Both the position numbers and the translations under genes were made by a program. The notes below the pieces were generated by a model. That model was given only the letters and a program-made list of their open reading frames with translations, searched no databases and was not told the DNA's origin. A DNA stretch of 53,239 bases, taken from assembly GCA_025351825.1 (NCBI GenBank), contig JANXVE010000037.1:1-53239 (forward strand). Reading direction: 5' to 3'. Origin of the DNA: Chamaesiphon sp. 341R_metabat_111 (GTDB taxonomy: Bacteria; Cyanobacteriota; Cyanobacteriia; Cyanobacteriales; Chamaesiphonaceae). Shown here piece by piece: positions 11,115 to 22,987 of this stretch. The first letter of the stretch is position 1, and every line of letters starts with the position of its first letter.

Positions 11115-11158
11115 TAGACACAACAATCCTATTTGATTTACTCGTCGTAACGTTAACC

Positions 11159-11374
11159 TGTAGGGGCGGTGCTTCATGCCCGCCCTCTAGGGTTTACAGA
11201 CGGACAAATCTTTTTCGGTAGGTTTGGTTGCGGATGGAATCGCGCTGAGGTTTCCTCAGCGTGCGTTCCACCAAGCAGAAGAATGAAACCCAACATTTCT
11301 AAAGTGTTTGAGTGCTTGTTGGGTTGTCTCGTTCCGAGAGGCTTCGCCAACGCTATCGCTCTACCCAACCTACC
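11159..11374. repeat. Composite intergenic repeat between pcyA and the GT1 gene
   Basis: Two repeat families lie side by side. At 11159-11190 is a TGTAGGGGCGG...GCCCGCCCT unit like those at the window start. From 11218 to 11374 is a larger inverted element with GTAGGTTTGGTTG at one end and ACCCAACCTACC at the other. It contains the palindromic word CGAGAGGCTTCGCCAACGCT, related to the short element found inside two genes (21331-21385, 34602-34635). Short open frames here are made of repeat sequence and are not credible genes. Confidence 0.7.
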
Positions 11375-11387
11375 AATTTTGGTCGCT

Positions 11388-12701
11388 CTAGGAGTTTTGT
11401 CCGTCAATCAGGTTCACACTTGTAGTCCAAGCGGTTTTAACCGCTGACGGATCTAAACTTTCGACGATCGCATCACAAGCCACTCGGACACCATCCTCCG
11501 CTTGAATTAGCTGGCCAATTTCTGCGGCTTTAGTCGCATATTCAGGATTTTCTAACAGTACTTTTAATTCCCGAGCGACTTTTGACGCGGTGTATGCCGC
11601 ACGATCGATCGTCCGCGATGTCCCCAATCGTTCCACCCGTGCCGCATTGTCTGGCTGATCGTAACTGTAGGGTACAATTAGCGTCGGCACACCAGCGCGC
11701 AAGGCTTGAGCCGTCGTACCAATGCCGCCCTGATGGACGATCACACAGGCGTGGGGGAAAATTTGGGAGTGGGGGACATAATCGATCGCGATCGTATCTG
11801 CGGGTAAATTAACTGGTGGCGGATTCTTGCCAATTAATAACACAGCTCGACGGTTTAACTGTCTAGCTGCTGCGATACTTTCTTGGTAAAAGGTGCCAGG
11901 AATCATCACGATTGCCGAACCCAATGTAAACACAATCGGTGGTTCACCTGCGGCTAAAAATGCCTGGAGTGCTGGTGAAAGTGCCACATTCAGATCGTTG
12001 CCATCGTAAAATGGAAACCCAGCGAGTGTAGTATTCCGCTCCCAGTCTGACTGCGGCGGTGCAAATAGGCACGAAAACATTGCCAACACCAAACAGGCAG
12101 AAGATCGATCGACTAATGGATTTTGATAGATTTGGGATAATTGCAGTTCTGTTCTGAGTTGATAAATTGGTTCTGCCCAAGATTTAGTAATTGCCTTGAA
12201 TAGTTCAATCATCCGCTGATTAACTGGTCGTCCTAATCCCCGTAACTTTTCTAAAAATTGCGCCAGTGGTAGTGATGGATCTTGTGCTGAGTGAAAAGCG
12301 ATCGGGGCAAGTGCTAATGAGATCCAGGGAACACCTAATTTCTCGGCAACTAAAGGAGCTGCATAGACAATATCGCCAGCGATAATCAGATCTGCATCTT
12401 GAGCACTATCGAGCAGATCTGTATAGGTATCGCGTAAATTTGGCATCAGCAACTCTCGGACACAATATTCCGAACCTGTTTTTACGTCTTTAATGCGAGC
12501 GATCTGTGTGGGAGTATCCATAATTGTCCCATCAGGACGCATTGGATAAAATTCAAAGCCTAATTGTGTAATAAGATCTTGATATTCGGCCATGGCTGCA
12601 AACACGATCTTCTGCCCACGGTGGTGAAGTTCCCTCGCGATCGCAATTTGAGGATACAGATCTCCCAAAGAGCCAATTGTTGTGAAAACAATTTTACTCA
12701 T
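11388..12701 (-). CDS. GT1-family glycosyltransferase (UGT/MGT-like)
   Basis: A 437-residue GT-B glycosyltransferase. The N-terminal acceptor domain begins IVFTTIGSLGDLYPQIAIA, typical of the rhamnosyl/macrolide/sterol glucosyltransferase branch. The C-terminal donor domain has the nucleotide-sugar motif HQGGIGTTAQALRAGVPTL followed by PYSYDQPDNAARVERLG. No signal or membrane segment is present, so it is a cytosolic enzyme acting on a small lipophilic acceptor. It is the last gene of the minus-strand NRPS cluster, 39 bases past the TPR-glycosyltransferase. The natural inference is that it glycosylates the cluster product. The sugar donor cannot be read from the sequence. Confidence 0.87.
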   Translation of the reverse strand: MSKIVFTTIGSLGDLYPQIAIARELHHRGQKIVFAAMAEYQDLITQLGFEFYPMRPDGTIMDTPTQIARIKDVKTGSEYCVRELLMPNLRDTYTDLLDSAQDADLIIAGDIVYAAPLVAEKLGVPWISLALAPIAFHSAQDPSLPLAQFLEKLRGLGRPVNQRMIELFKAITKSWAEPIYQLRTELQLSQIYQNPLVDRSSACLVLAMFSCLFAPPQSDWERNTTLAGFPFYDGNDLNVALSPALQAFLAAGEPPIVFTLGSAIVMIPGTFYQESIAAARQLNRRAVLLIGKNPPPVNLPADTIAIDYVPHSQIFPHACVIVHQGGIGTTAQALRAGVPTLIVPYSYDQPDNAARVERLGTSRTIDRAAYTASKVARELKVLLENPEYATKAAEIGQLIQAEDGVRVACDAIVESLDPSAVKTAWTTSVNLIDGQNS

Positions 12702-12740
12702 TATTGTTTAGGTTAGTATTGTAATGTAATTTCAAGTAAG

Positions 12741-14129
12741 TTAGATTGCCCCATACAATTCACTATTTTGAAAGCTAGTTAGAAAGCAATTATCTGACAA
12801 GTTTCTTCTGGTTTGACAGTGTTTGAGATATAGATGAGTTGCTAAAATCAGGTCGGTATCCAGTGCTTTTTCGGCAGCTTCTACAAGAGTATGAAAATAC
12901 ATAGGATAGTCGTCTCCTAAATACTCCTTGACAGCAGGTAGCGGATTAATTAATAGTGGTGTCGATCGCGCAATGCATTCAACAATGGCATTATTCGCAC
13001 TAGTATCATACAAATCTATAAAAGCAATATTCATTGATAATAAATTATCGTACTCATCGTTAGAGACATAATCGATTGAGATCGTATTTGCTTGATAGAT
13101 TTGCTCTATTTCCAGCTTGTAGATTCTCGCTTCTAATTTTAGCAAGTTGGCAAATGCGGACGCTTCTAAGTCGAAGAAAGATCCAATTCGCACCTTTTGA
13201 TAGCCCAGGGGATTATTTTGAGCCAGCGGTAACTGATAAATGGAATTGAGTTTGCGTAACCACCAGCCAACCTGCACAATTTTTTTCTGGGGATTGGTGA
13301 TAAATCGATCGAAGTCAAAGATGCGATCGGGAATTTCAGTAGGATGAGTTAGTACTGAGACTGGTTTTCCAGTCTGTTCTCTCAGCCATTTAGCATGGTA
13401 GTCAGATAATGCAAACAATCCCAAACAATGTGGTATGCTAGCCTGCCAAATCTCTTTGGCAAATAACTTTTGGGGCGATCTGTGGTGATAATTAAACCAG
13501 ATCGGCATCGATTGGGGATTGTGGAGAAATCCTACCCAAGGCTGCTGATAAGGCACGAGCTTCTTTTCCACTGAGGTAGCAAATCTTTCAAATACGCCAT
13601 CTGTTCGCATTTTTGCGAGAATCCGCTCAGAACGTTGTCCCAATTGTTCATCTTGAAACAGAAAGTTGTCTTCTAAATAACCATCAAAGAAGACTCCGCG
13701 AGGATTGTGGAGGGATTTGAGGGATCCAATTGCGAAGTTCCAGCCACTGCGATGCCCGCCAAAAACTCGTTGGTTGCCAAGATCGATCTTGCCTGTAGCG
13801 GGATGAGCAGATTCAGTGGTGGCAAATGAAGTATATTCTGGTTTAATTACTTTGACCAAACCCAGATGTTGATAGTAGCAAGTCAGATCTGTTGCCTCAA
13901 AATCTAGTGAAAGCGATCGATTGTAATATTCTAGAGCTTCCTCAATTTGGTTTTGCCCTAGTAGTAAATTAGCTAATTGTTGGCAAGCAGGTAAATGATT
14001 TGGGTGCGATCGCAATATTTCTCGATAGTGAATAATTGCCTGCTCAAAGTCACCCTGGAGCTGTAAACTATGAGCTAATTCAAATTGAGGCGCAGCTAAG
14101 TTATTGTCTGAATTTGATAATCGATCCAC
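12741..14129 (-). CDS. TPR protein with a glycosyltransferase-like C-terminal domain
   Basis: A 462-residue protein. Residues about 10-85 are two to three TPR units (FELAHSLQLQGDFEQAIIHYREIL; ACQQLANLLLGQNQIEEALEYYNRSL). The rest has a GT-B-like look: VGFLHNPQSMPIWF, LFALSDYHAKWLREQTGKP, IVQVGWWLRKLNSIYQLP, and near the end NNAIVECIARSTPLLINPLPAVKEYLG, the position where GT4-like enzymes bind the sugar nucleotide. I cannot place it in a named family. The start is GTG at 14129, supported by a GGGGA ribosome site about 9 bases upstream. It lies 56 bases after the NRPS stop, so it belongs to that operon; a sugar-transfer role in the pathway is inferred. Confidence 0.7.
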   Translation of the reverse strand: MDRLSNSDNNLAAPQFELAHSLQLQGDFEQAIIHYREILRSHPNHLPACQQLANLLLGQNQIEEALEYYNRSLSLDFEATDLTCYYQHLGLVKVIKPEYTSFATTESAHPATGKIDLGNQRVFGGHRSGWNFAIGSLKSLHNPRGVFFDGYLEDNFLFQDEQLGQRSERILAKMRTDGVFERFATSVEKKLVPYQQPWVGFLHNPQSMPIWFNYHHRSPQKLFAKEIWQASIPHCLGLFALSDYHAKWLREQTGKPVSVLTHPTEIPDRIFDFDRFITNPQKKIVQVGWWLRKLNSIYQLPLAQNNPLGYQKVRIGSFFDLEASAFANLLKLEARIYKLEIEQIYQANTISIDYVSNDEYDNLLSMNIAFIDLYDTSANNAIVECIARSTPLLINPLPAVKEYLGDDYPMYFHTLVEAAEKALDTDLILATHLYLKHCQTRRNLSDNCFLTSFQNSELYGAI

Positions 14130-14185
14130 GATCTTTTCCCCAGTTACTAATCTTCAGGTAATTCTCTAACTTAAACTTAATTAGC

Positions 14186-17100
14186 TCAGTTCAGATACAA
14201 TTTCAGCTTTTCAGCCAAAACTCGAATATATGGTTCTTTTAATAAATTAGTATGATCCCCTGGCAAAGTGTGAATTTCAACTCCGTCACTGACTTGTTTA
14301 CCCCAACCCAGATCTGAATGTAATGCTCGTGCTAGTGGTTGCACACTGGCACGAAACAGCACAACTTTTCCCTGATAAGCTGCTCCGGTATAGTTCTCCG
14401 CCGCTTGAAAATTGGTGGCTAGCACTTTTAGATATTCAGGTGGCAAAGGTGTCGCCCACCGATCGAGCAGGAATTCCATATCCCTGTTTTCTCTATGCTG
14501 GTATAGTGTCCGAAACACGATTCGATCTGTAATGTATTTTATTCGTTCTGGCATTCTTAGTCGATAAAGATTCTGGAGATGAATTTCGATAACTCGAATG
14601 AATGGAGGACGAACTTCTACGAAGCTGGGTGCAGGATTATCGATCGATGCGAGTAAACCAATTGTTTCGCCTTGGCGTTCGAGCTGGCAGGCAATTTCAA
14701 AAGCTACTAATGCCCCAAAAGAATAGCCAGCCAGGAAATAAGGACCATGGGGTTGAACGGTTTGGATTTCGCGGATATAGCTAGCCGCCATATCTTCGAT
14801 CCGAGTCAATGGGCCTTGTTCGCCATCTAATCCCAAGGACTGCAAGCCATAAATCGGTTGTGCGGCCCCTAAATGGGCGGCAAGGGGATAATACTCCAAA
14901 ACATTGCCACCGACGGGATGAGCGCAGAATAAGGGCGGTTTGGAACCACGAGCGGCGATCGGGACTAGGGATGACCAGGTTGTCGATCCTGGTTGGCGCA
15001 AGATTGTCGCTAGCTGTGCGATCGTCGGTGAGTGAAACAACGTCGCTAATGGCAGATTTTGGTTAAACGTTGTGCCAATTTCAGCAAATAGCCGAACGGC
15101 TAGGAGTGAGTGCCCACCCAGGTCAAAGAAATTGTCACTGGTACCGATCGATCCAATTCCGAGCACTCGCTCCCACATTTTGGTTAGTTGCAGTTCTAAT
15201 CCATCTGTGGGGGTGACAAAGGTTGAGGCTGGTTCTAAGCTAGTTCGTTCTGGGATGGGCAGGGCGCGTCGATCGATCTTGCCATTCGCCGTGAGGGGAA
15301 GGGTTTCGAGCAGCACAAAGACTGCTGGAATCATATATTCAGGTAGTTTGTCCCTGAGGAAACTCCGGCACTCATTCGGCGTGGGAGCGGAATCTTGGTG
15401 CGGTACGATGTAGGCAATTAGGCTGCGATCGCCTGGATTTATCTCTCTCGCCATGACCACCGCTTGGCTGATGGCGGAGTGTTGGGACAAAGCTGTCTCT
15501 ATTTCGCCCAGCTCGATCCGAAAGCCCCGAATTTTGACTAAATCATCGATCCGCCCCAGAAATTCGATCTTGCCATCGCTTGAGTAGCGGGCAAGATCGC
15601 CTGTTTGATAGAGGCGGGCAGATGTTGCGGTTGAGAAAGGGTGGGAGATGAATTTCGCTGCGGTTAAGTCAGGGCGGTGGAGATAGCCTCGGCATAATCC
15701 AGCTCCACCGAGGTATAGTTCTCCAGGTACGCCAATGGGCACTGGTTGGAGTTGATGGTTGAGGATGTAAGTTTGGGTGTTGGCGATCGGTCTGCCGATC
15801 GAGATTAGTGTTTCATCACTGCTGGTTACTGACTTAGTTGCACTTACTTGGTAAATCGTAGACCAAATCGTGGTTTCAGTTGGCCCATACAGATTCCATA
15901 ATTCGCTCCCAGTTGCGAGAATTTGGTGCGCTAGTACAGCGGGTAAGGCTTCACCACCGCATAATGCCTTCAGGGGATATGAGCGATCCCATCCGCCAGC
16001 TAATAGCAATTGCCAAGTAGCTAGAGTTGCTTGCAGGATAGTAGTCTGATACTGCTGGAGCGTGGCTAAGAGTAAGTTGGCATCGATCGCAATTTCACGA
16101 GTTACGATGACTACTTTCGCCCCGACGATCAGTGGTAGATAAAGTTCGAGGGCGGCAATATCAAAGGAAATAGTCGTCACAGCCGCTAAAGTATCTTCTG
16201 GCTTGATGCCTGGAGCATGGCGCATGGATAATAAAAAGTTAACCACGTTGCGATGTTCGATCGCGACTCCTTTTGGTTGTCCGGTAGAACCAGAAGTGTA
16301 GAGCACATAGGCTAACTGCTGGGAGTGGCAACCACGGTCGATATTCTCTGGGCAATAATCTTCACCCTGCTGCCAATCGAGATCTAAGCAGACCACCTGA
16401 GCCAAATCTGACGGAATCGCCGCTAATAGCTCCGATCGAGTCACCAAAATCTCCACCCCAGCATCAGCCAACATAAAACCCAATCGAGCTGGCGGATAAC
16501 TTGGATCTAGTGGCACATAAGCCCCCCCAGCCTTCAAGATCCCCAGTAACCCCACGAGCAGCTCGATCGAGCGTTCCACCAAAATTCCCACCAGCACATC
16601 GGCAGTAACACCGATCTGGTGCAATCGATCGGCGAGTTGATTGGCTTGACAATTGAGCTGGCGATAGGTAATTTGTTTTGCTCCAAAGATCGCAGCAACG
16701 GCATTAGGCGTGCGTTCGACTTGGGCTTCAAACAATTGATGGATACAGGTGTTGGGGTAGTCGTGTTGGGTCTGATTCCACTGGACCAGAATTCGATCTT
16801 GTTCGGCTGGTGTTAGTAGCGGTAAATTGCCAATACACTGGGTGGGATTGGTGACAATATCCGTCAGTAAAATTTGGAAATGCTCAACCATTCGCTCGAT
16901 CGTCTCTGGTTCAAATAGATCGGTGTTGTACTCAATGCCGCCCTGGATGCCTGTAGTAGTTTCTTCGAGGTTGAGGGTGAGGTCGAAAGTGGAGATGCCT
17001 CTACGATGGACTTCGATCGGTGTAACGGTCACATCTGGTATCGACCAATTTTCGTTGGTGATGTGCTCGAAGATAAACATCACCTGAAATAGCGGCGAAC

Positions 17101-18247
17101 GGCTTAAGTCTCGCACTGGATTTAGAGCTTCAATTAGTCTTTCCAAGGGCAGATCTTGATGAGCATAGGCTCCTAAAGCTACTTGCTTGACCCGACCCAA
17201 TAATTCTTGAAAACTGGGATTGTGCGCGAGATTAGTTCGCATTACTAAAGTATTGATAAAACAGCCGATCGATCCTTCAATCTCCATCCGGTTGCGTCCA
17301 GAAATCGGCGTACCCACAAGGATATCTTCCTGTCCGCTGTAGCGATAGAGTAGGGTCTGAAACGCCGCCAAGCAGGTCATAAACAGGGTGACTCCCTCTT
17401 GCTGACTGAGAGATTGGAGATCTGACCACAGGGTTGGGGGTAGGGCAAACGATCGATACCGCCCTGCATAAGTCTGAACTGGAGGGCGCGGTCGATCTGT
17501 TGGTAATTGCAGAATCGGCAGGATCCCACCTAACTGCTGTTGCCAGTAATCGAGTTGAAATGCCAGGATCTCGCCCTGGAGTCGCTGACGTTGCCAGACA
17601 GCAAAGTCAGCGTACTGGATTGTTAGCTCACTCAGGGGTGATGGTCGATCGTTGGAGAAAGCTGTATAAATATTCGCCAGTTCTCGCCAAAAAATCTCGA
17701 TCGATAAACCATCGCAAATGATATGGTGGATCGCGACAATGATCTGATGAACCGCTGGCGCAAGCCGAATTAGTTTGACTCGGATCGCCGGACTTTGAGC
17801 CAAGTCAAACGGCTGTTCTGCTAGCTGCGTAAATTGTCGTCGCGCTTCAGGCTCTCGATCGATTTCTGGTAACTCTTGGAGATCGATAATTGGCAAGCTA
17901 AAAGTCAGATCTCGATCGATCGATTGGATTGATGTTCCAGCTTGAATCGGAAAAGTTGTTCTGAGAATTTCATGCCGTCGAATTAATTCACCAAAGCTGC
18001 GTTCTAGCACGCGGACATCGAGCTGCCCCTCCAAGCGAAAAGCGATCGGCAAGTTGTTGACAAAAGTACCAGGTGCTAGCTGCTCCATAAACCAAAATCG
18101 CTGCTGGGCAAAGGAAACAGGCATCACACCATCTCTTGCGACTGGCTGAATTGACGACCCTTTACGAGCAGTACTCAAAGCCGATCGAATTGTGTTCCAG
18201 AGCTGTTGCTGACTTTGGGTAGTGGGAGATCGATCGTTTGAGGACAT
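14186..18247 (-). CDS. Single-module nonribosomal peptide synthetase, C-A-T-TE
   Basis: A 1353-residue NRPS. Condensation domain (about 40-480) with active HHIICDG at 174-180. Adenylation domain (about 500-1005) with YTSGSTGQPKG, NLYGPTETT, YQTGDLARY and NGKIDRR. Thiolation domain with LGGHS, phosphopantetheine Ser1047. C-terminal thioesterase with Ser1176 in GYSFG, Asp1203 and His1332 in PGDH. Ten specificity residues aligned by eye to PheA (Asp696, Ile697, Leu700, Gln739, Leu762, Gly764, Leu786, Ile794, Trp795, Lys990) spell DILQLGLIWK, a code associated with glycine. There is no loading module, epimerase or methyltransferase. Because the protein starts with a C domain, it needs an acyl donor on another carrier; the free carrier protein at 19681-19926 is the obvious candidate. 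Confidence 0.95.
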   Translation of the reverse strand: MSSNDRSPTTQSQQQLWNTIRSALSTARKGSSIQPVARDGVMPVSFAQQRFWFMEQLAPGTFVNNLPIAFRLEGQLDVRVLERSFGELIRRHEILRTTFPIQAGTSIQSIDRDLTFSLPIIDLQELPEIDREPEARRQFTQLAEQPFDLAQSPAIRVKLIRLAPAVHQIIVAIHHIICDGLSIEIFWRELANIYTAFSNDRPSPLSELTIQYADFAVWQRQRLQGEILAFQLDYWQQQLGGILPILQLPTDRPRPPVQTYAGRYRSFALPPTLWSDLQSLSQQEGVTLFMTCLAAFQTLLYRYSGQEDILVGTPISGRNRMEIEGSIGCFINTLVMRTNLAHNPSFQELLGRVKQVALGAYAHQDLPLERLIEALNPVRDLSRSPLFQVMFIFEHITNENWSIPDVTVTPIEVHRRGISTFDLTLNLEETTTGIQGGIEYNTDLFEPETIERMVEHFQILLTDIVTNPTQCIGNLPLLTPAEQDRILVQWNQTQHDYPNTCIHQLFEAQVERTPNAVAAIFGAKQITYRQLNCQANQLADRLHQIGVTADVLVGILVERSIELLVGLLGILKAGGAYVPLDPSYPPARLGFMLADAGVEILVTRSELLAAIPSDLAQVVCLDLDWQQGEDYCPENIDRGCHSQQLAYVLYTSGSTGQPKGVAIEHRNVVNFLLSMRHAPGIKPEDTLAAVTTISFDIAALELYLPLIVGAKVVIVTREIAIDANLLLATLQQYQTTILQATLATWQLLLAGGWDRSYPLKALCGGEALPAVLAHQILATGSELWNLYGPTETTIWSTIYQVSATKSVTSSDETLISIGRPIANTQTYILNHQLQPVPIGVPGELYLGGAGLCRGYLHRPDLTAAKFISHPFSTATSARLYQTGDLARYSSDGKIEFLGRIDDLVKIRGFRIELGEIETALSQHSAISQAVVMAREINPGDRSLIAYIVPHQDSAPTPNECRSFLRDKLPEYMIPAVFVLLETLPLTANGKIDRRALPIPERTSLEPASTFVTPTDGLELQLTKMWERVLGIGSIGTSDNFFDLGGHSLLAVRLFAEIGTTFNQNLPLATLFHSPTIAQLATILRQPGSTTWSSLVPIAARGSKPPLFCAHPVGGNVLEYYPLAAHLGAAQPIYGLQSLGLDGEQGPLTRIEDMAASYIREIQTVQPHGPYFLAGYSFGALVAFEIACQLERQGETIGLLASIDNPAPSFVEVRPPFIRVIEIHLQNLYRLRMPERIKYITDRIVFRTLYQHRENRDMEFLLDRWATPLPPEYLKVLATNFQAAENYTGAAYQGKVVLFRASVQPLARALHSDLGWGKQVSDGVEIHTLPGDHTNLLKEPYIRVLAEKLKLYLN

Positions 18248-18548
18248 TGCGATATCGGTTTTAAGGAATAGGAGATAGGGGCTAGGGGATAGGCAACAAT
18301 TCCAAACTCAAACTTATTTCCATATATCGTAGGGGCGGGTATCTTGTCGTTTTTTTATGCCGAGGAAACCCCCGCATAAAAACGCAGCTTTATGCTAGAA
18401 ATACTCGCAACGCATCATTAAATGTTGAACGAACCCGCCCAACCCCACCAGCAACAATCAATTATTGGTGGGAAATCGATAAAATATCTTGACTTTGGAA
18501 TTGTCCGTTGGTAGGGGCAATTCATGAATTGCCCTACCAACTGGTGGG
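18248..18548. repeat. Intergenic spacer with two hairpins inside the NRPS cluster
   Basis: This 301-bp spacer separates the NRPS start from the upstream glycosyltransferase stop. At 18352-18360/18374-18382 is a perfect 9-bp stem (TTTTTATGC/GCATAAAAA) with a 13-base loop. At 18508-18540 is a near-perfect palindrome reading TTGGTAGGGGCAATTCA and its complement with one bulged G. GTAGGGGC words tie both to the repeat at the window start. On the minus strand the second hairpin comes just after the glycosyltransferase stop, so it could attenuate or end the first four-gene transcript before the NRPS. A separate NRPS promoter may lie here, but I could not identify one. Confidence 0.65.
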
Positions 18549-19673
18549 CTATTTAATCTTCATTTTAATCGATCTTTCCTGCAAGTTTTCCGCATAACTT
18601 TGAGCATAATTAATGGTCGATCGATCTCGATTCAAAATATTCTGATGTAGCTGTTCGAGAATACCTCGATCGTAATTCAGCTCCTTCCACTTCTCATAAG
18701 CAATCCCATAACCCAAATATTTCCAGATATCAGCATTACTTTGTTCGGCATAACCATAAGGTTCTAGTAAAATAATGGGTGTAGCCGATGCCAGTGAATC
18801 AATTAGCGTGCCACCCCCTGGCTTACTGATAATTGCTTTACTCTGCCTTATCACATCAAATAGTTCGTGATACTCTGGTCTATTTCTAAAGTTTGATGAA
18901 TTATTCACTTCACCGAACGGTGGGAATTCAGGTTGTTCATTCGGAGATTGCAGCCACGGCGACCAATTTGGATCGACCATAAAGTAGCGATTATTTGGAT
19001 TGGTGTGAGTGCTTTCGGCAACCTCATAAGCCACAATATCTAATGAAATTTCGCTCTGTTCTAATTCTGCAATTTTATTAGTATATGTACCAATGCCCCA
19101 GCCACCACCGTGGATCACAAATCGATTAGACCTTGCGGCATAAGGGATTGGCGATTCAGTCGTAACAGGCAGTTCATAGTCCAGCTTTTTCTCACTCCAA
19201 TTCCACAGCCAGATCTCTCGATCGTGTTCATTGAAATTGCTATAACTTTTAAATGTGGCTGAAACATCAGCATCAATTCGACACAGATTGACACTCACTG
19301 GTTGCGGTGCTACTTGCTGGCGATATTTTTCAATAATCGGCATCCAGAATCCAGACCACACAATAAAGTTAGATCTACTTTCAGCTTCCCAACTATTCAA
19401 AATAGCATTAACTAACTCATCATCTAGACTAAATTGAATATCTTTAGTCATCTTATGTCCCATCAAAGCCATCGCAAAGTTCTTGTGATAAGCTTGCTTG
19501 TGACTTTTGAGCTTCTGTTGACTTTCTAGTGTATAAAGATGCTCTAGGATTACAACATCTGTGTGTAGTTGCTGTTGTTGCAACTGATAATTGAGCAACA
19601 ATGCGGGAATATATACTCCGAGGGCAACCCCAGAGCAAAGAATTGTGACTGTTGGATTGGTTCGATCGAGCAT
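18549..19673 (-). CDS. GT-B (MurG/MGDG-synthase-like) glycosyltransferase-like protein
   Basis: A 374-residue protein. The N-terminus (TVTILCSGVALGVYIPALLLNYQL) resembles the first Rossmann strand and glycine loop of GT-B enzymes. The C-terminal part has SKPGGGTLIDSLASATPIILLEPYG followed by a QSNAD-type motif, as in GT28 donor-binding sites. HGGGWGIGTY in the middle is an additional glycine loop. No signal peptide is evident. It starts 7 bases past the carrier-protein stop and is therefore in the same operon. A role in sugar attachment in the cluster is inferred; the acceptor and donor are unknown. Confidence 0.72.
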   Translation of the reverse strand: MLDRTNPTVTILCSGVALGVYIPALLLNYQLQQQQLHTDVVILEHLYTLESQQKLKSHKQAYHKNFAMALMGHKMTKDIQFSLDDELVNAILNSWEAESRSNFIVWSGFWMPIIEKYRQQVAPQPVSVNLCRIDADVSATFKSYSNFNEHDREIWLWNWSEKKLDYELPVTTESPIPYAARSNRFVIHGGGWGIGTYTNKIAELEQSEISLDIVAYEVAESTHTNPNNRYFMVDPNWSPWLQSPNEQPEFPPFGEVNNSSNFRNRPEYHELFDVIRQSKAIISKPGGGTLIDSLASATPIILLEPYGYAEQSNADIWKYLGYGIAYEKWKELNYDRGILEQLHQNILNRDRSTINYAQSYAENLQERSIKMKIK

Positions 19674-19680
19674 TAGATTA

Positions 19681-19926
19681 CTAGTGAGTTTTTTTCATTT
19701 GCTGTAATACTTCGCTAAACTTTTCAATCGATTTGAGATACGAAAAATCTAGCTTTTCAAAATCAATTTCCAGATCGAGCTGACTTTCTACTTCCAGCAT
19801 GAATTCCATCATCTGTAAGGAATCTAGTCCAATATCTTCGATAATATCTGCGGAATCAGCTAGCTGTGCTGCTAAGCCAGGTACACCCTTGATTTTTTCT
19901 AAAATTAGTTTAATTTCTTGGATCAC
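19681..19926 (-). CDS. Stand-alone acyl/peptidyl carrier protein
   Basis: An 81-residue four-helix carrier protein. The phosphopantetheine attachment motif is IGLDSLQMMEF, with the serine in DSL. The protein is strongly acidic and of standard carrier length. The start is GTG at 19926 with a GAGG ribosome site about 10 bases upstream. It is tightly packed with its neighbours, 6 bases after the AMP-ligase stop and 7 bases before the glycosyltransferase start. This suggests that the ligase loads this carrier and that the carrier feeds the NRPS condensation domain. Sequence alone does not show whether it carries an amino acid or a fatty/aryl acid. Confidence 0.9.
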   Translation of the reverse strand: MIQEIKLILEKIKGVPGLAAQLADSADIIEDIGLDSLQMMEFMLEVESQLDLEIDFEKLDFSYLKSIEKFSEVLQQMKKTH

Positions 19927-19932
19927 GATCGT

Positions 19933-21534
19933 TTACCTCTGGGTGATTGGTGTTGTGGTTTGAGAGTTGGACTTTAATTGCTTGAGATCGATCTTCCCCG
20001 TTAATGTTGTGGGCAATTTTGGGTGAATTTGAACATGTTTAGGCACCATGTATTTCTCCAAGTGCAGGGAACAGTATGCTAGTATGTCTGACTCTGTTAA
20101 TGCCGATTCTACTGATAGAACTACCGCAACTTCGATCGCCTGACCTAAAAATTCATGGTCTACTCCAAACACAGCTACTCGATCGATTCCAGCTAGTTCG
20201 CACAGGATATCTTCAATTTCTTTGGGACTGACTCGCTCTCCACCTGTCTTAATTAAATCGTCTGTTCTCGCGATAAAATAAAAGTAGCCTTCCTCATCCA
20301 TTTTGAATAAATCTTGAGTGTGTAAGATTCGATCGCCTTGACTAGTTGTTTCCAAAACTTTGGCAGTTTCTTCAGGTAGATTCCAGTATCCTTTCATCAC
20401 ATTGGAACCACGGACTATCAATTCGCCGACTGTACCTGGATCGCTAATTTTGGTACCATTTTCATCGACTAAATACACTTCGGTATTGGGCATCGCTTTA
20501 CCAACAGAATTAGGTCGAGTCAGAACTTGTTCGGGTGATAAATACAGTACTCTTTTACACTCAGTCAATCCGTACATGGAGTAAATCTTAGTTTGTGGCA
20601 ATAATTTACTCAGTCTCAATAGATGGTTGGGCGGAAAGGCTTGTCCGGTGCTAGTTAGATATCTCAAGCTAGAAAAATTGTATTGCTCCAAATTTTTCAC
20701 CTGCAAGAAGATACTAATGATTGTTGGTACTAACGGCAAGCCAGTAACGCGCTCTTTATTTACCAGCCCAATTAATTGGAATGGATAAACAAATGATTTT
20801 TCGAGAACAACTGTACCGCCAAATTTAAACGGCATCAATAGATTGTAAAGACCATAATCAAAAGATAGTGGCAAACAATTTAAAATAATATCATCACAGG
20901 TATTTCCCAGGTATTCAATGATAGAATTAGCTGCTGAAACTATATTTAGATGACTCAGCATGACACCTTTGGATTTTCCTGTAGAACCAGATGTATAGAT
21001 TAAGATACATAAATCTATGTCGATCCAAGTATTTTGTGGTCGTTGAGATGAGGATCGATCGATTAACTCCCAAAAAGAATGATTAGCCAAAGTTTCAACG
21101 TTTCGATTATTGTCGATCGATATCGTCTGAAGATCGGTACAATTACCTTGATAGTTCAATCCCAACTTACTGTCAGTAATTAAAAATCTAACTTGACAAT
21201 CATTGAGGATATAGTCTAATTTTCTGGCTTTGGTTTGGGAATTAATTAATACAAATACTCCCCCAGCTTTGAGAATACCAAAAATAGAAATAACTGCTTC
21301 CACAGAGTTATCTAAGTAGATCGCTATTCGTGGGCGTTCGCGTAGCGTCTGCCCTCGCAGAAGCCTCTCCCCTGGAGAATCGAGCTTTTGCAATCCTAAC
21401 TGTAGCAAAGCATTGCCCAGCCTGTTAGCAAAGTTGTCAAGCTCCAGATAAGTCAATCGCTGCTGCTGAAAAATCAGGGCTTCTTTATTGGGTGTTCTGG
21501 CAGCAGTTTGTTCTAAAAATTCATTTACTAGCAC
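19933..21534 (-). CDS. Stand-alone acyl- or aminoacyl-AMP ligase with an in-frame repeat insertion
   Basis: A 533-residue adenylate-forming enzyme with CILIYTSGSTGKSKGVMLSH (A3), MYGLTECKR (A5), GELIVRGSNVMKGYW, HTQDLFKMDEEGYFYFIARTDDLIKTGG (A7/A8) and the catalytic lysine in TLTGKIDLKQL (A10). PLSFDYGLYNLL and SVGKAMPNTEVYLV resemble the exosortase-A-associated ligase group, a comparison from memory. It presumably activates an acid and loads it on the adjacent carrier protein. The first ATG (21579) overlaps the radical SAM gene. The GTG at 21534, 14 bases past that stop with AGGC upstream, gives the family start (VLVNEFLEQTAARTPNKEAL). About 17 residues (LDSPGERLLRGQTLRER) before RIAIYLDNS are a translated short repeat absent from the normal fold. 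Confidence 0.88.
   Translation of the reverse strand: MLVNEFLEQTAARTPNKEALIFQQQRLTYLELDNFANRLGNALLQLGLQKLDSPGERLLRGQTLRERPRIAIYLDNSVEAVISIFGILKAGGVFVLINSQTKARKLDYILNDCQVRFLITDSKLGLNYQGNCTDLQTISIDNNRNVETLANHSFWELIDRSSSQRPQNTWIDIDLCILIYTSGSTGKSKGVMLSHLNIVSAANSIIEYLGNTCDDIILNCLPLSFDYGLYNLLMPFKFGGTVVLEKSFVYPFQLIGLVNKERVTGLPLVPTIISIFLQVKNLEQYNFSSLRYLTSTGQAFPPNHLLRLSKLLPQTKIYSMYGLTECKRVLYLSPEQVLTRPNSVGKAMPNTEVYLVDENGTKISDPGTVGELIVRGSNVMKGYWNLPEETAKVLETTSQGDRILHTQDLFKMDEEGYFYFIARTDDLIKTGGERVSPKEIEDILCELAGIDRVAVFGVDHEFLGQAIEVAVVLSVESALTESDILAYCSLHLEKYMVPKHVQIHPKLPTTLTGKIDLKQLKSNSQTTTPITQR
21331..21385. repeat. Short palindromic repeat inside the AMP-ligase gene
   Basis: On the plus strand the stretch reads from GGGCGTTCGCGTAGCGTCTG through GCAGAAGCCTCTCCCCTGGA to GAATCGAG. 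The words CGTTCGCGTAGCG and GGAGAATCGAG are shared with intergenic elements (10140-10175; 44745-44765) and with the element in the multicopper oxidase gene (34602-34635). It keeps the reading frame and encodes LDSPGERLLRGQTLRER between a helix and a core strand of the ligase. Confidence 0.75.
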
Positions 21535-21548
21535 GATCTTTGCCTGTC

Positions 21549-22739
21549 TCAAATACCACGAGAATATAACAAACTGCACTTGGAGCAGACAGGCATCAAA
21601 CCGCAGGTATCGACTGTCTCTCTGACTTTGGTGAATTTATCACTATGCCAAACGTCGGCAACACTTTCAGTGGCTAAATCTCCGACGGCAAATTCTGGAA
21701 AGAATTTACAAGAAACGACTTCTCCCCCAGGGAAAATATCCATACGATTTTTGATCGCTAGACACTTCGTTTTATTTTGAGCGGGTTTATCACTGCCCAA
21801 AATAAAATCTTTGATTTCATCAATACCCACTGCGGGATTATAACGAAGCTTGACTTTCCAGGTTCTGTCATTAACTCGATTGAGTTCTGTGATTAATGGA
21901 TCGATGAGATCTGGATTGAGTTTATATTTATAAGCATACCAACTCGGCCTGCCCTGTTCGGTTGGCAAAAAGTCTAAATGATCGGTAAAATATCGATCCA
22001 TTTTACCCGAAGTTTCATCTGACAAATACCAGAGAAAGCTTAGATAAACAGTATCGACACCTTTTTTCTCCCAAAATTCTAGCAGCTCGTATAAACGATC
22101 GACCATTTGCTCGGTAATCACACAATTAATCAGGATTTCACCTTTGTATGTTCCCAGTCGCTTCTGTTCGAGCAGCAGATCGATTCCGTGCATTGTTTTG
22201 GCATAACTGCCCTTGCCTCGGATGCTATCATGCTCTGCTTCAAAGCCCTCAACGGCGATGTACATTTCGAGTTGTTCGGAAATTCTCAACAGCGATGACA
22301 ATTGCTTCTCGATCCAAATTCCATTGGTGCAAATCGATGTCCAGCGCGGATCGCGTTCGAGTAAATCGACTAATTTATCCCAGTTTTGATAAATCAACGG
22401 CTCACCACCCCAGAGAAAGACATTTGATTTAACCGATTGAGTTGCATCAAATACTTTCTCAATTACCGCCAGATCGACATCTTCATTTTGCTCGGCTTTG
22501 TCTAGATTATGATGATGCCCATCTTCATTCCATTGATAGCAATGTTGACAGCGGAGATTGCAGCGATTTGTAAGTTTAAACGCTATTTCTTCAGGGAGTG
22601 CTCTGACTGAATAATCAGATGAGATTTTGTCTCTATTGCCTGCCAAAAATCCAGGCACGATTCGCTTCATCTTTTCAAAGGCAATTCGATCGACATTGAC
22701 ATCAGATTTAGGTTTCATCGCGGCTTCCCATACTGGCAT
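21549..22739 (-). CDS. Radical SAM/SPASM domain protein
   Basis: A 396-residue radical SAM enzyme. The [4Fe-4S]/SAM motif is CNLRCQHC (Cys60, Cys64, Cys67), followed by the GGEPLIY SAM-binding motif. The C-terminal SPASM-type region has KTKCLAIKNRMDIFPGGEVVSCKFF and CGLMPVCSKCSLLY, enough cysteines for at least one auxiliary cluster. SPASM enzymes usually modify peptides or carrier-bound substrates; no small precursor peptide gene is visible nearby. The second ATG (22718) has a GGGAAG ribosome site and may be the true start. The gene is first in the minus-strand cluster, divergent from the M16 gene, with the cluster promoter presumably in 22740-22987. Confidence 0.9.
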   Translation of the reverse strand: MPVWEAAMKPKSDVNVDRIAFEKMKRIVPGFLAGNRDKISSDYSVRALPEEIAFKLTNRCNLRCQHCYQWNEDGHHHNLDKAEQNEDVDLAVIEKVFDATQSVKSNVFLWGGEPLIYQNWDKLVDLLERDPRWTSICTNGIWIEKQLSSLLRISEQLEMYIAVEGFEAEHDSIRGKGSYAKTMHGIDLLLEQKRLGTYKGEILINCVITEQMVDRLYELLEFWEKKGVDTVYLSFLWYLSDETSGKMDRYFTDHLDFLPTEQGRPSWYAYKYKLNPDLIDPLITELNRVNDRTWKVKLRYNPAVGIDEIKDFILGSDKPAQNKTKCLAIKNRMDIFPGGEVVSCKFFPEFAVGDLATESVADVWHSDKFTKVRETVDTCGLMPVCSKCSLLYSRGI

Positions 22740-22987
22740 TAGATTGACAGGGTACCAAATAGCCTAAGGTTAGCTTTGATACTTGAGTCTGAACAATAAT
22801 TTTAAATTGCAACAATGCTACCATAACAATCTAAAATTCACTGTGATCTAAGCACGTCATCAGCAATAATAGTTCGAGGATTGACCGATCGTTTCCAAAA
22901 TTTAGAGGTACGATCGACATGACAGCCCAGATATGGTGTAGCTTGGATCGTAAGTCGTGTATTTAACATTCAGTATCAGCCTCACCA

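Follow-up and report, generated by a model that had tools for sequence, protein, structure and literature searches.

A seven-gene island in a Chamaesiphon genome contains a conserved ligase, carrier protein, glycosyltransferase and radical SAM cassette and may direct synthesis of a glycosylated small molecule

The seven-gene block and its genomic setting

The window, that is, the whole stretch of DNA analysed here, comprises 53,239 nucleotides of contig JANXVE010000037.1 of the cyanobacterium Chamaesiphon sp. 341R_metabat_111 (assembly GCA_025351825.1). At positions 11388-22739 the list of its open reading frames (ORFs) contains seven consecutive genes on the minus strand, in agreement with an earlier reading made by a model from the sequence alone (the original prediction). 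Their families were assigned by Pfam and NCBIfam. Reading down from 22739, they encode a radical S-adenosylmethionine (SAM) enzyme, an AMP-forming ligase, a free acyl carrier protein (ACP), a glycosyltransferase that we name GTa, a nonribosomal peptide synthetase (NRPS), a TPR protein and a macrolide-type glycosyltransferase. The best explanation we can offer for this block, to which we give, taken as a whole, about an even chance of being correct, is that it constitutes a biosynthetic gene island whose core assembles an unusual building block attached to a carrier protein.

The ligase gene probably starts at the GTG at 21534, a start that agrees with its relatives. With this start the first four genes are separated by 14, 6 and 7 bp, within the range of 6-14 bp originally given. 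If the gene is instead taken as the longest ORF, from 21579, it shares 31 bases with the radical SAM gene. A gap of 301 bp separates GTa from the NRPS gene and contains, at 18507-18541, a dispersed hairpin repeat that has 52 matches in its own genome. Nearly all of these matches hit the hairpin part of the query and, because this part is palindromic, many sites are counted on both strands. Scans for promoters and terminators performed no better than on shuffled sequences.

DNA alignment with other genomes of the same genus delimited an island of ∼11.8 kb (positions 11119-22912) that holds exactly the seven genes and that is absent from genomes G370 and G392. The island is located between pcyA (Fe_bilin_red by Pfam) and an M16 peptidase gene. 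Alignable DNA ends at window position 11115 for G370 and 11118 for G392 and restarts at 22962 and 22913, respectively, and at the empty site the aligned blocks are separated by 12 bp in G370 and by 87 bp in G392. The pcyA and M16 genes are neighbours in both genomes, and the broader gene order is kept in G370. The M16 gene was located in seven other members of the genus; pcyA adjoins it in two of these and lies outside the fetched stretch in the other five, which are thus uninformative on the empty site. No match to GTa (E<=1e-10) was detected in the eight other genus members searched. The empty site in G370 and G392 indicates that the seven genes were gained, or were lost by these relatives, as one unit. 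Together with the gene order that recurs in Nostoc sp. NMS8 (see below), it argues that the block is more than a chance arrangement, and it bears out the view that these genes form a single cluster.

A four-gene cassette conserved across phyla

Four of the genes, those encoding the ligase, the free ACP, GTa and the radical SAM enzyme, form a cassette that is also found in distant bacteria. Searches with the radical SAM protein identified nine loci in named genomes (Nostoc sp. NMS8, seven Paenibacillus and Pedobacter hartonius) and two Streptomyces plasmids, plus two Serratia plasmids at 28% identity. A search with GTa added four cyanobacterial genomes, two of which (G312 and G540) contain a full radical SAM gene. 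Both genes are rare: at E<=1e-30 the radical SAM protein has matches in 4 of 292 cyanobacterial genomes, the window's own and three with weak matches, and of the 388 genomes searched in the order five, its own included, contain GTa. The genes for ACP, GTa and the radical SAM enzyme are located within ∼11 kb of each other in all 14 loci that have a full-length radical SAM protein: the window, three other Cyanobacteria (Nostoc sp. NMS8, G312 and G540), seven Paenibacillus, one Pedobacter hartonius and two Streptomyces. Absence of conserved co-occurrence in any relative had been named in advance as one observation that would speak against the prediction; instead, the three genes co-occur in every one of the 14 loci. 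What is conserved across phyla, however, is the four-part cassette and not the seven-gene set.

Some partial relatives fall outside this count. These are three cyanobacterial genomes with a radical SAM protein at 29-31% (L002-L004, ∼4 kb each, in which no other cassette gene was seen), the two Serratia plasmids, one of which was inspected, genome G569 (in which GTa is accompanied by part of an ATP-grasp gene and by no more than a remnant of the radical SAM gene) and genome G553 (GTa alone, at a contig end).

The ligase slot of the cassette is occupied by either of two protein types. An ATP-grasp protein is encoded in 12 of the 14 loci, and an AMP-forming ligase in the remaining two, the window and Nostoc. 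When entire genomes were searched, no ATP-grasp match (E<=1e-5) was obtained in G000, Nostoc (G597) or G553, of six genomes searched, and the AMP ligase (E<=1e-90) was present only in G000 and Nostoc, of eight searched. G553 has neither ligase, and no genome searched in this way contains matches to both. Within the stretches fetched, 10 of the 14 loci have a Gfo/Idh/MocA oxidoreductase gene (a count that excludes a partial 28% match in L011), and six have a second radical SAM gene.

The gene order in Nostoc sp. NMS8 is radical SAM, ligase, a methyltransferase-like gene, ACP and GTa, followed 25 bp later by the start of an NRPS gene and then by the contig end. The Nostoc radical SAM gene is split between two frames. 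This frame split may reflect decay or an assembly error, as may that of the G312 ATP-grasp gene and the remnant state of the G569 radical SAM gene (L007, L022 and L023).

These loci bear on whether the block encodes one pathway or two. In principle, the cassette could make a glycosylated free amino acid or a cyclitol-like compound while the NRPS and the two genes downstream of it make another, glycine-containing product. The two halves are indeed parted by the 301-bp gap and differ in by-gene G+C content (0.354-0.418 versus 0.408-0.494), the seven Paenibacillus cassettes have no NRPS in the stretch fetched, and the closest relative of the TPR protein that we found is located away from a cassette. 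On the other hand, the Nostoc NRPS gene starts directly behind GTa, the G312 and G540 cassettes are on contigs with NRPS and polyketide synthase (PKS) genes, and the Streptomyces and Pedobacter cassettes adjoin free-standing condensation (C) domains. Moreover, the empty site lacks all seven genes together, and the dispersed repeat in the 301-bp gap could be an insertion. We regard two neighbouring pathways as unlikely.

The ligase and its substrate pocket

The free-standing AMP-forming ligase (19933-21534; Pfam AMP-binding) has a VinN-like pocket, and VinN chains are its closest single-domain matches in the PDB. VinN residues D230, F231, S299, K330 and R331 align with D241, Y242, T311, K342 and R343 of the ligase, two of which are conservative changes (ligase residues are counted from the GTG at 21579; in the VinN chain used, residue numbers are shifted by 16). 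The Nostoc ligase and a ligase of Sinorhizobium meliloti carry the same pocket residues as the window ligase. A K-R pair following the YGxTE-type motif was found in 2 of 28 motifs in the fetched loci, and in 3 of 44 when more loci and another filter were used, this filter having been designed to admit the motif variants found in the ligases from the window and Nostoc. In both counts the pair is restricted to this ligase type, the third case being the Sinorhizobium ligase.

In the literature, which is cited here by PubMed Central (PMC) number and as far as the excerpts available to us extend, the five VinN residues are described to recognise 3-methylaspartate as a beta-amino acid (PMC11253843). 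BolO of the bolagladin pathway has three of them (Asp230, Ser299 and Arg331), and its proposed role is to load Asp via the side chain on a free ACP (PMC7756342), and AfcQ was shown to activate L-Asp (PMC12186527). Thus, VinN-type enzymes are described as loading Asp-type substrates via the side chain on free ACPs (PMC11253843, PMC7756342, PMC12186527). The pocket of the window ligase suggests that its substrate, too, would be aspartate loaded via the side chain.

The S. meliloti ligase is encoded on a megaplasmid (L109, 6747-11552) in a locus composed of asnB, ACP, ligase and nadE. It was the one examined of 124 plasmid records with window-ligase matches at E<=1e-80. Assignment of the window ligase to the exosortase-associated ligases of TIGR03098 was ruled out, as it scored 445 bits against a curated cut-off of 592.35.

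The ligase gene also contains a 16-residue in-frame insertion (21331-21378, minus strand) that its relatives from Nostoc and S. meliloti lack. A search across the genome gave eight matches to parts of the insertion, including itself, so that it probably is a dispersed repeat.

The carrier protein, GTa and the radical SAM enzyme

The free ACP (19681-19926) is a protein of 81 residues that matches Pfam PP-binding and contains a DSL motif with Ser36. GTa (18549-19673; 374 residues) has no Pfam match, and its assignment as a GT-B-fold glycosyltransferase relies on a predicted fold and on weak similarity to the profile of diacylglycerol glucosyltransferase (E 3.3e-5). The predicted model (pLDDT 85.7) adopts a GT-B fold over its whole length and matches MurG, MGD1 and UDP-glycosyltransferases with Z-scores of 18-20 across 269-310 residues. 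Individual matches are 7mco (Z 20.0, root-mean-square deviation (rmsd) 3.6, 302 residues aligned), MurG 3s2u (Z 19.8, rmsd 3.3, 281 aligned) and MGD1 4x1t (Z 18.8, rmsd 3.6, 269 aligned).

GTa thus resembles a processive diacylglycerol glucosyltransferase and a galactolipid synthase, and NCBIfam places the ligase near acyl-CoA ligases. This could mean that GTa is a lipid glycosyltransferase, that the substrate of the ligase is a fatty or hydroxy acid and that the product is a glycolipid or a lipo-glycine. Against such a function speaks the ligase, which retains the amine-binding Asp of VinN as well as the K-R pair and has VinN chains as its best single-domain relatives of known structure. Besides, no fatty-acid gene is present among the seven. 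We consider a lipid product quite improbable.

The radical SAM enzyme (21549-22739; 396 residues) matches both Radical_SAM and SPASM of Pfam. It contains a CxxxCxxC motif at positions 60, 64 and 67 and candidate auxiliary-cluster cysteines at 326, 344, 385 and 388, and the latter four are conserved without exception in the nine sequences aligned. SPASM domains are described to have seven C-terminal cysteines, and BtrN is described as a twitch enzyme with a four-cysteine auxiliary site (PMC6231123). Having four and not seven invariant C-terminal cysteines, the enzyme is, by this pattern, of the twitch type with a putative single auxiliary cluster, and membership of the SPASM family was ruled out in spite of the match to the Pfam model. 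Hence, of the radical SAM/SPASM enzyme originally placed at the operon start, the radical SAM part stands and the SPASM part does not. The twitch part can be aligned in sequence with BtrN.

The predicted model of the radical SAM enzyme (pLDDT 77) gave structural matches to DesII (Z 22.1, rmsd 4.4, 303 aligned), SkfB (Z 21.1, rmsd 3.7, 287 aligned), BlsE (Z 21.1, rmsd 3.2, 286 aligned) and anSME (Z 20.9, rmsd 3.3, 279 aligned), with further matches close behind. That to BtrN was lower (Z 15.3, rmsd 3.0, 217 aligned). DesII and BlsE act on nucleotide-linked sugars. Their place among the best matches would fit a radical SAM enzyme that works before loading, on a free substrate or a sugar nucleotide, with only its product being loaded or transferred. 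Linkage to an ACP gene in 14 of 14 loci fits, without proving, an ACP-bound substrate, and in the mitomycin precedent glycosylation takes place on the ACP (see below). We deem an action before loading doubtful, and favour an ACP-bound substrate.

The NRPS and the genes downstream of it

The single-module NRPS (14186-18247; 1353 residues) is, by Pfam, a complete C-A-T-TE protein, consisting of condensation (C), adenylation (A), carrier (T) and thioesterase (TE) domains, and its sequence shows the HHxxxDG, LGGHSL and GxSxG motifs. This supports the original description of an NRPS that begins with an intact C domain and ends in a TE. A separate ligase and a free ACP that could provide its acyl donor are, as proposed, encoded upstream, together in one operon. 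The A-domain pocket, judged from residues picked by eye and the specificity code for glycine, presumably accommodates glycine; the domain is probably glycine-specific, consistent with the glycine originally predicted.

In a tree of C domains (28 rows; bootstrap unsettled) the window C domain groups with one from a Nostoc contig (57% identity) and with one from G553 (support 86/89), and the Streptomyces and Pedobacter C domains are on very long branches. The tree does not support a single clade of cassette-associated C domains. An N-terminal extension was also considered as a mark of cassette NRPSs, and was dropped because G553:C139 has the extension beside genes that, by eye, are halogenase-like.

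The gene downstream of the NRPS (12741-14129; 462 residues) encodes a TPR protein by Pfam, with a possible glycosyltransferase domain (Glyco_transf_4, E 0.085, sub-threshold). The last gene (11388-12701; 437 residues) encodes a macrolide/UDP-glycosyltransferase-like protein that matches EryCIII-like_C and UDPGT of Pfam, and NCBIfam MGT with an E-value of 3.5e-35 that is under the cut-off. Thus, of the three glycosyltransferases predicted for the block, that at 11388-12701 is supported by Pfam and GTa by a weak profile and its predicted fold; that at 12741-14129 is unproven. A relative of the TPR protein at 66% is present in G569, and a partial one in G312, each in a region other than that of the cassette genes. 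Conservation of the two downstream genes with the cassette was rejected, since no match to either was found in the cassette loci.

Proposed pathway and comparison with known systems

We propose the following pathway, based on the predicted functions and on analogy with described systems. The ligase would activate L-aspartate, or a close analogue, at its side-chain carboxylate and load it on the free ACP. GTa would glycosylate the ACP-bound residue, using a nucleotide sugar as donor. The tethered glyco-aminoacyl group would then be altered by the twitch radical SAM enzyme. The C domain of the NRPS would pass the acyl group from the ACP to glycine on the NRPS carrier domain, and the TE would release the acyl-glycine. 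The macrolide-type glycosyltransferase and the TPR protein may act late, adding further sugars or providing self-protection. For the core of this scheme, an aminoacyl-ACP that is glycosylated and radically modified on its carrier before being condensed with glycine by the C-A-T-TE NRPS, we see the chances as evenly balanced.

In pactamycin synthesis, glycosylation takes place on an ACP, after which the sugar is modified on the carrier. The pactamycin gene cluster is described to contain the radical SAM genes ptmC/H/L/M, the glycosyltransferase gene ptmJ and the sugar-modifying genes ptmA/B/G/N (PMC13402214). Compared by description only, the likeness lies in the combination of radical SAM genes and a glycosyltransferase, and oxidoreductase, aminotransferase or carbamoyltransferase genes as in pactamycin are also located beside some of the related cassettes. 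Pactamycin however contains a polyketide-type acyl group, and by Pfam the window block has no oxidoreductase, aminotransferase or carbamoyltransferase gene.

In mitomycin synthesis, MitE activates 3-amino-5-hydroxybenzoic acid (AHBA), MmcB carries it, and MitB, a protein of ∼33 kDa, glycosylates the MmcB-bound AHBA with UDP-GlcNAc; the radical SAM enzyme MitD is proposed for C-C bond formation (PMC8621148). Judged by described roles only, this is the same logic of ligase, free ACP, glycosyltransferase and radical SAM enzyme. It differs in that mitomycin uses AHBA and GlcNAc, no NRPS being mentioned in the excerpt available (PMC8621148), whereas the window has an Asp-type pocket, a GT-B enzyme and an NRPS. 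Traits of the mitomycin and pactamycin type are present here: a ligase and a free ACP in one operon in the window, and conserved glycosyltransferase and radical SAM neighbours in 14 of 14 loci.

A free-standing ligase with a pocket of the D/F/S/K/R type is shared with the vicenistatin, bolagladin and AFC-BC11 systems (PMC11284099, PMC7756342, PMC12186527). Vicenistatin and bolagladin also employ a free ACP, and the bolagladin unit is proposed to be the starter of an NRPS product (PMC11284099, PMC7756342). As described, a pyridoxal phosphate (PLP) enzyme decarboxylates the ACP-bound residue in vicenistatin synthesis, and the same is proposed for bolagladin; the window has glycosyltransferase and radical SAM genes instead. 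BtrN of the butirosin pathway is, according to its description (PMC6231123), a twitch radical SAM dehydrogenase with a four-cysteine auxiliary site and, as said, has an alignable twitch part, but it belongs to another pathway and its Z-score is below those of DesII, BlsE, SkfB and anSME. The claim that no described pathway matches the block is upheld for the exact seven-gene set, of which we found no description among the matches listed in searches of the open-licence PMC literature, but mitomycin and pactamycin are described pathways of similar logic.

Several observations weigh against the proposed pathway. The VinN-like pocket is also present in the Sinorhizobium asnB-ACP-ligase-nadE locus, and hence marks a ligase type and not this pathway alone. 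By Pfam, no PLP decarboxylase, the enzyme that follows VinN-type loading in vicenistatin synthesis, is encoded among the seven genes. MitB (∼33 kDa; PMC8621148, excerpt) and GTa (374 residues) differ in size and may for this reason be unrelated. The top structural matches of the radical SAM model are near-equal and mix peptide- and sugar-acting enzymes, so that their ranking leaves the substrate undecided. The Gfo/Idh/MocA oxidoreductase found in most loci is absent from those of the window and Nostoc. Finally, the seven Paenibacillus loci show, in the 21 kb fetched, no NRPS match at E<=1e-3, indicating that the conserved core does not include coupling to an NRPS.

More tentatively, the cassette may be a general and undescribed machine, present in at least four phyla, that builds radical-rearranged glyco-amino acids on a carrier protein; aminocyclopentitol or C-glycosyl amino acids may be examples. 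Two interchangeable, unrelated ligase types would provide entry, C domains or NRPSs would take over the product in part of the lineages, and the machine would be the amino-acid counterpart of the sugar chemistry of mitomycin and pactamycin. If this holds true, on-carrier glycosylation with subsequent radical SAM chemistry is a module of four phyla and not a rarity of two antitumour antibiotics. The window block, whose product is probably a small molecule, is worth biochemical follow-up: with its ligase, ACP, glycosyltransferase and radical SAM enzyme, the cassette in its compact cyanobacterial form is a small set for in vitro reconstitution of the radical step, and the 81-residue ACP suits a readout of each step by intact-protein mass spectrometry.

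Gene content around related cassettes

Clusters bearing the cassette differ in their remaining genes, and their products probably differ accordingly. Both Streptomyces linear plasmids (L005 and L006) contain genes for the radical SAM enzyme, ACP, ATP-grasp protein, Gfo/Idh oxidoreductase, GTa and a free-standing C domain; L006 additionally contains genes for an APH-type kinase, an aldolase, a DegT aminotransferase and dTDP-sugar synthesis. In G312:C352 and G540:C505 (L022, L024, L064 and L065) the cassette is part of large clusters with an NRPS of apparent order C-T-C-A-T, a PKS with a thioesterase (KS-AT-ACP-TE by Pfam in G540), a carbamoyltransferase, several glycosyltransferase genes and three radical SAM genes. 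In the Paenibacillus loci L009, L010 and L015 the cassette is followed by genes of the UDP-sugar dehydrogenase and epimerase types (one member of each was assigned by Pfam), and L009 and L010 contain a second ACP gene and a gene for a luciferase-like monooxygenase.

On Serratia marcescens plasmid pQC19 (L073) the 28% radical SAM relative is located right after a gene annotated as the glycosyltransferase ugtP, and an NRPS is encoded nearby. At E<=1e-3 this locus gave no sequence match to GTa, ACP or ATP-grasp.

Nostoc contig G597:C8 (L069/L072) opens inside an NRPS A domain, which is followed by T-TE, a 2-oxoglutarate oxygenase, a fused glycosyltransferase-sulfotransferase and a pyruvyl transferase; it is possibly the end of the Nostoc counterpart of the window cluster. 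Contig C77 starts close to the point where the NRPS of the Nostoc cassette locus (L007) breaks off, and C8 in turn starts close to where C77 breaks off. The terminal part of L007 is not found again in C77, and a continuous cluster running from L007 through C77 to C8 is a guess. By its specificity code, the first A domain on C77 would presumably read proline and not glycine.

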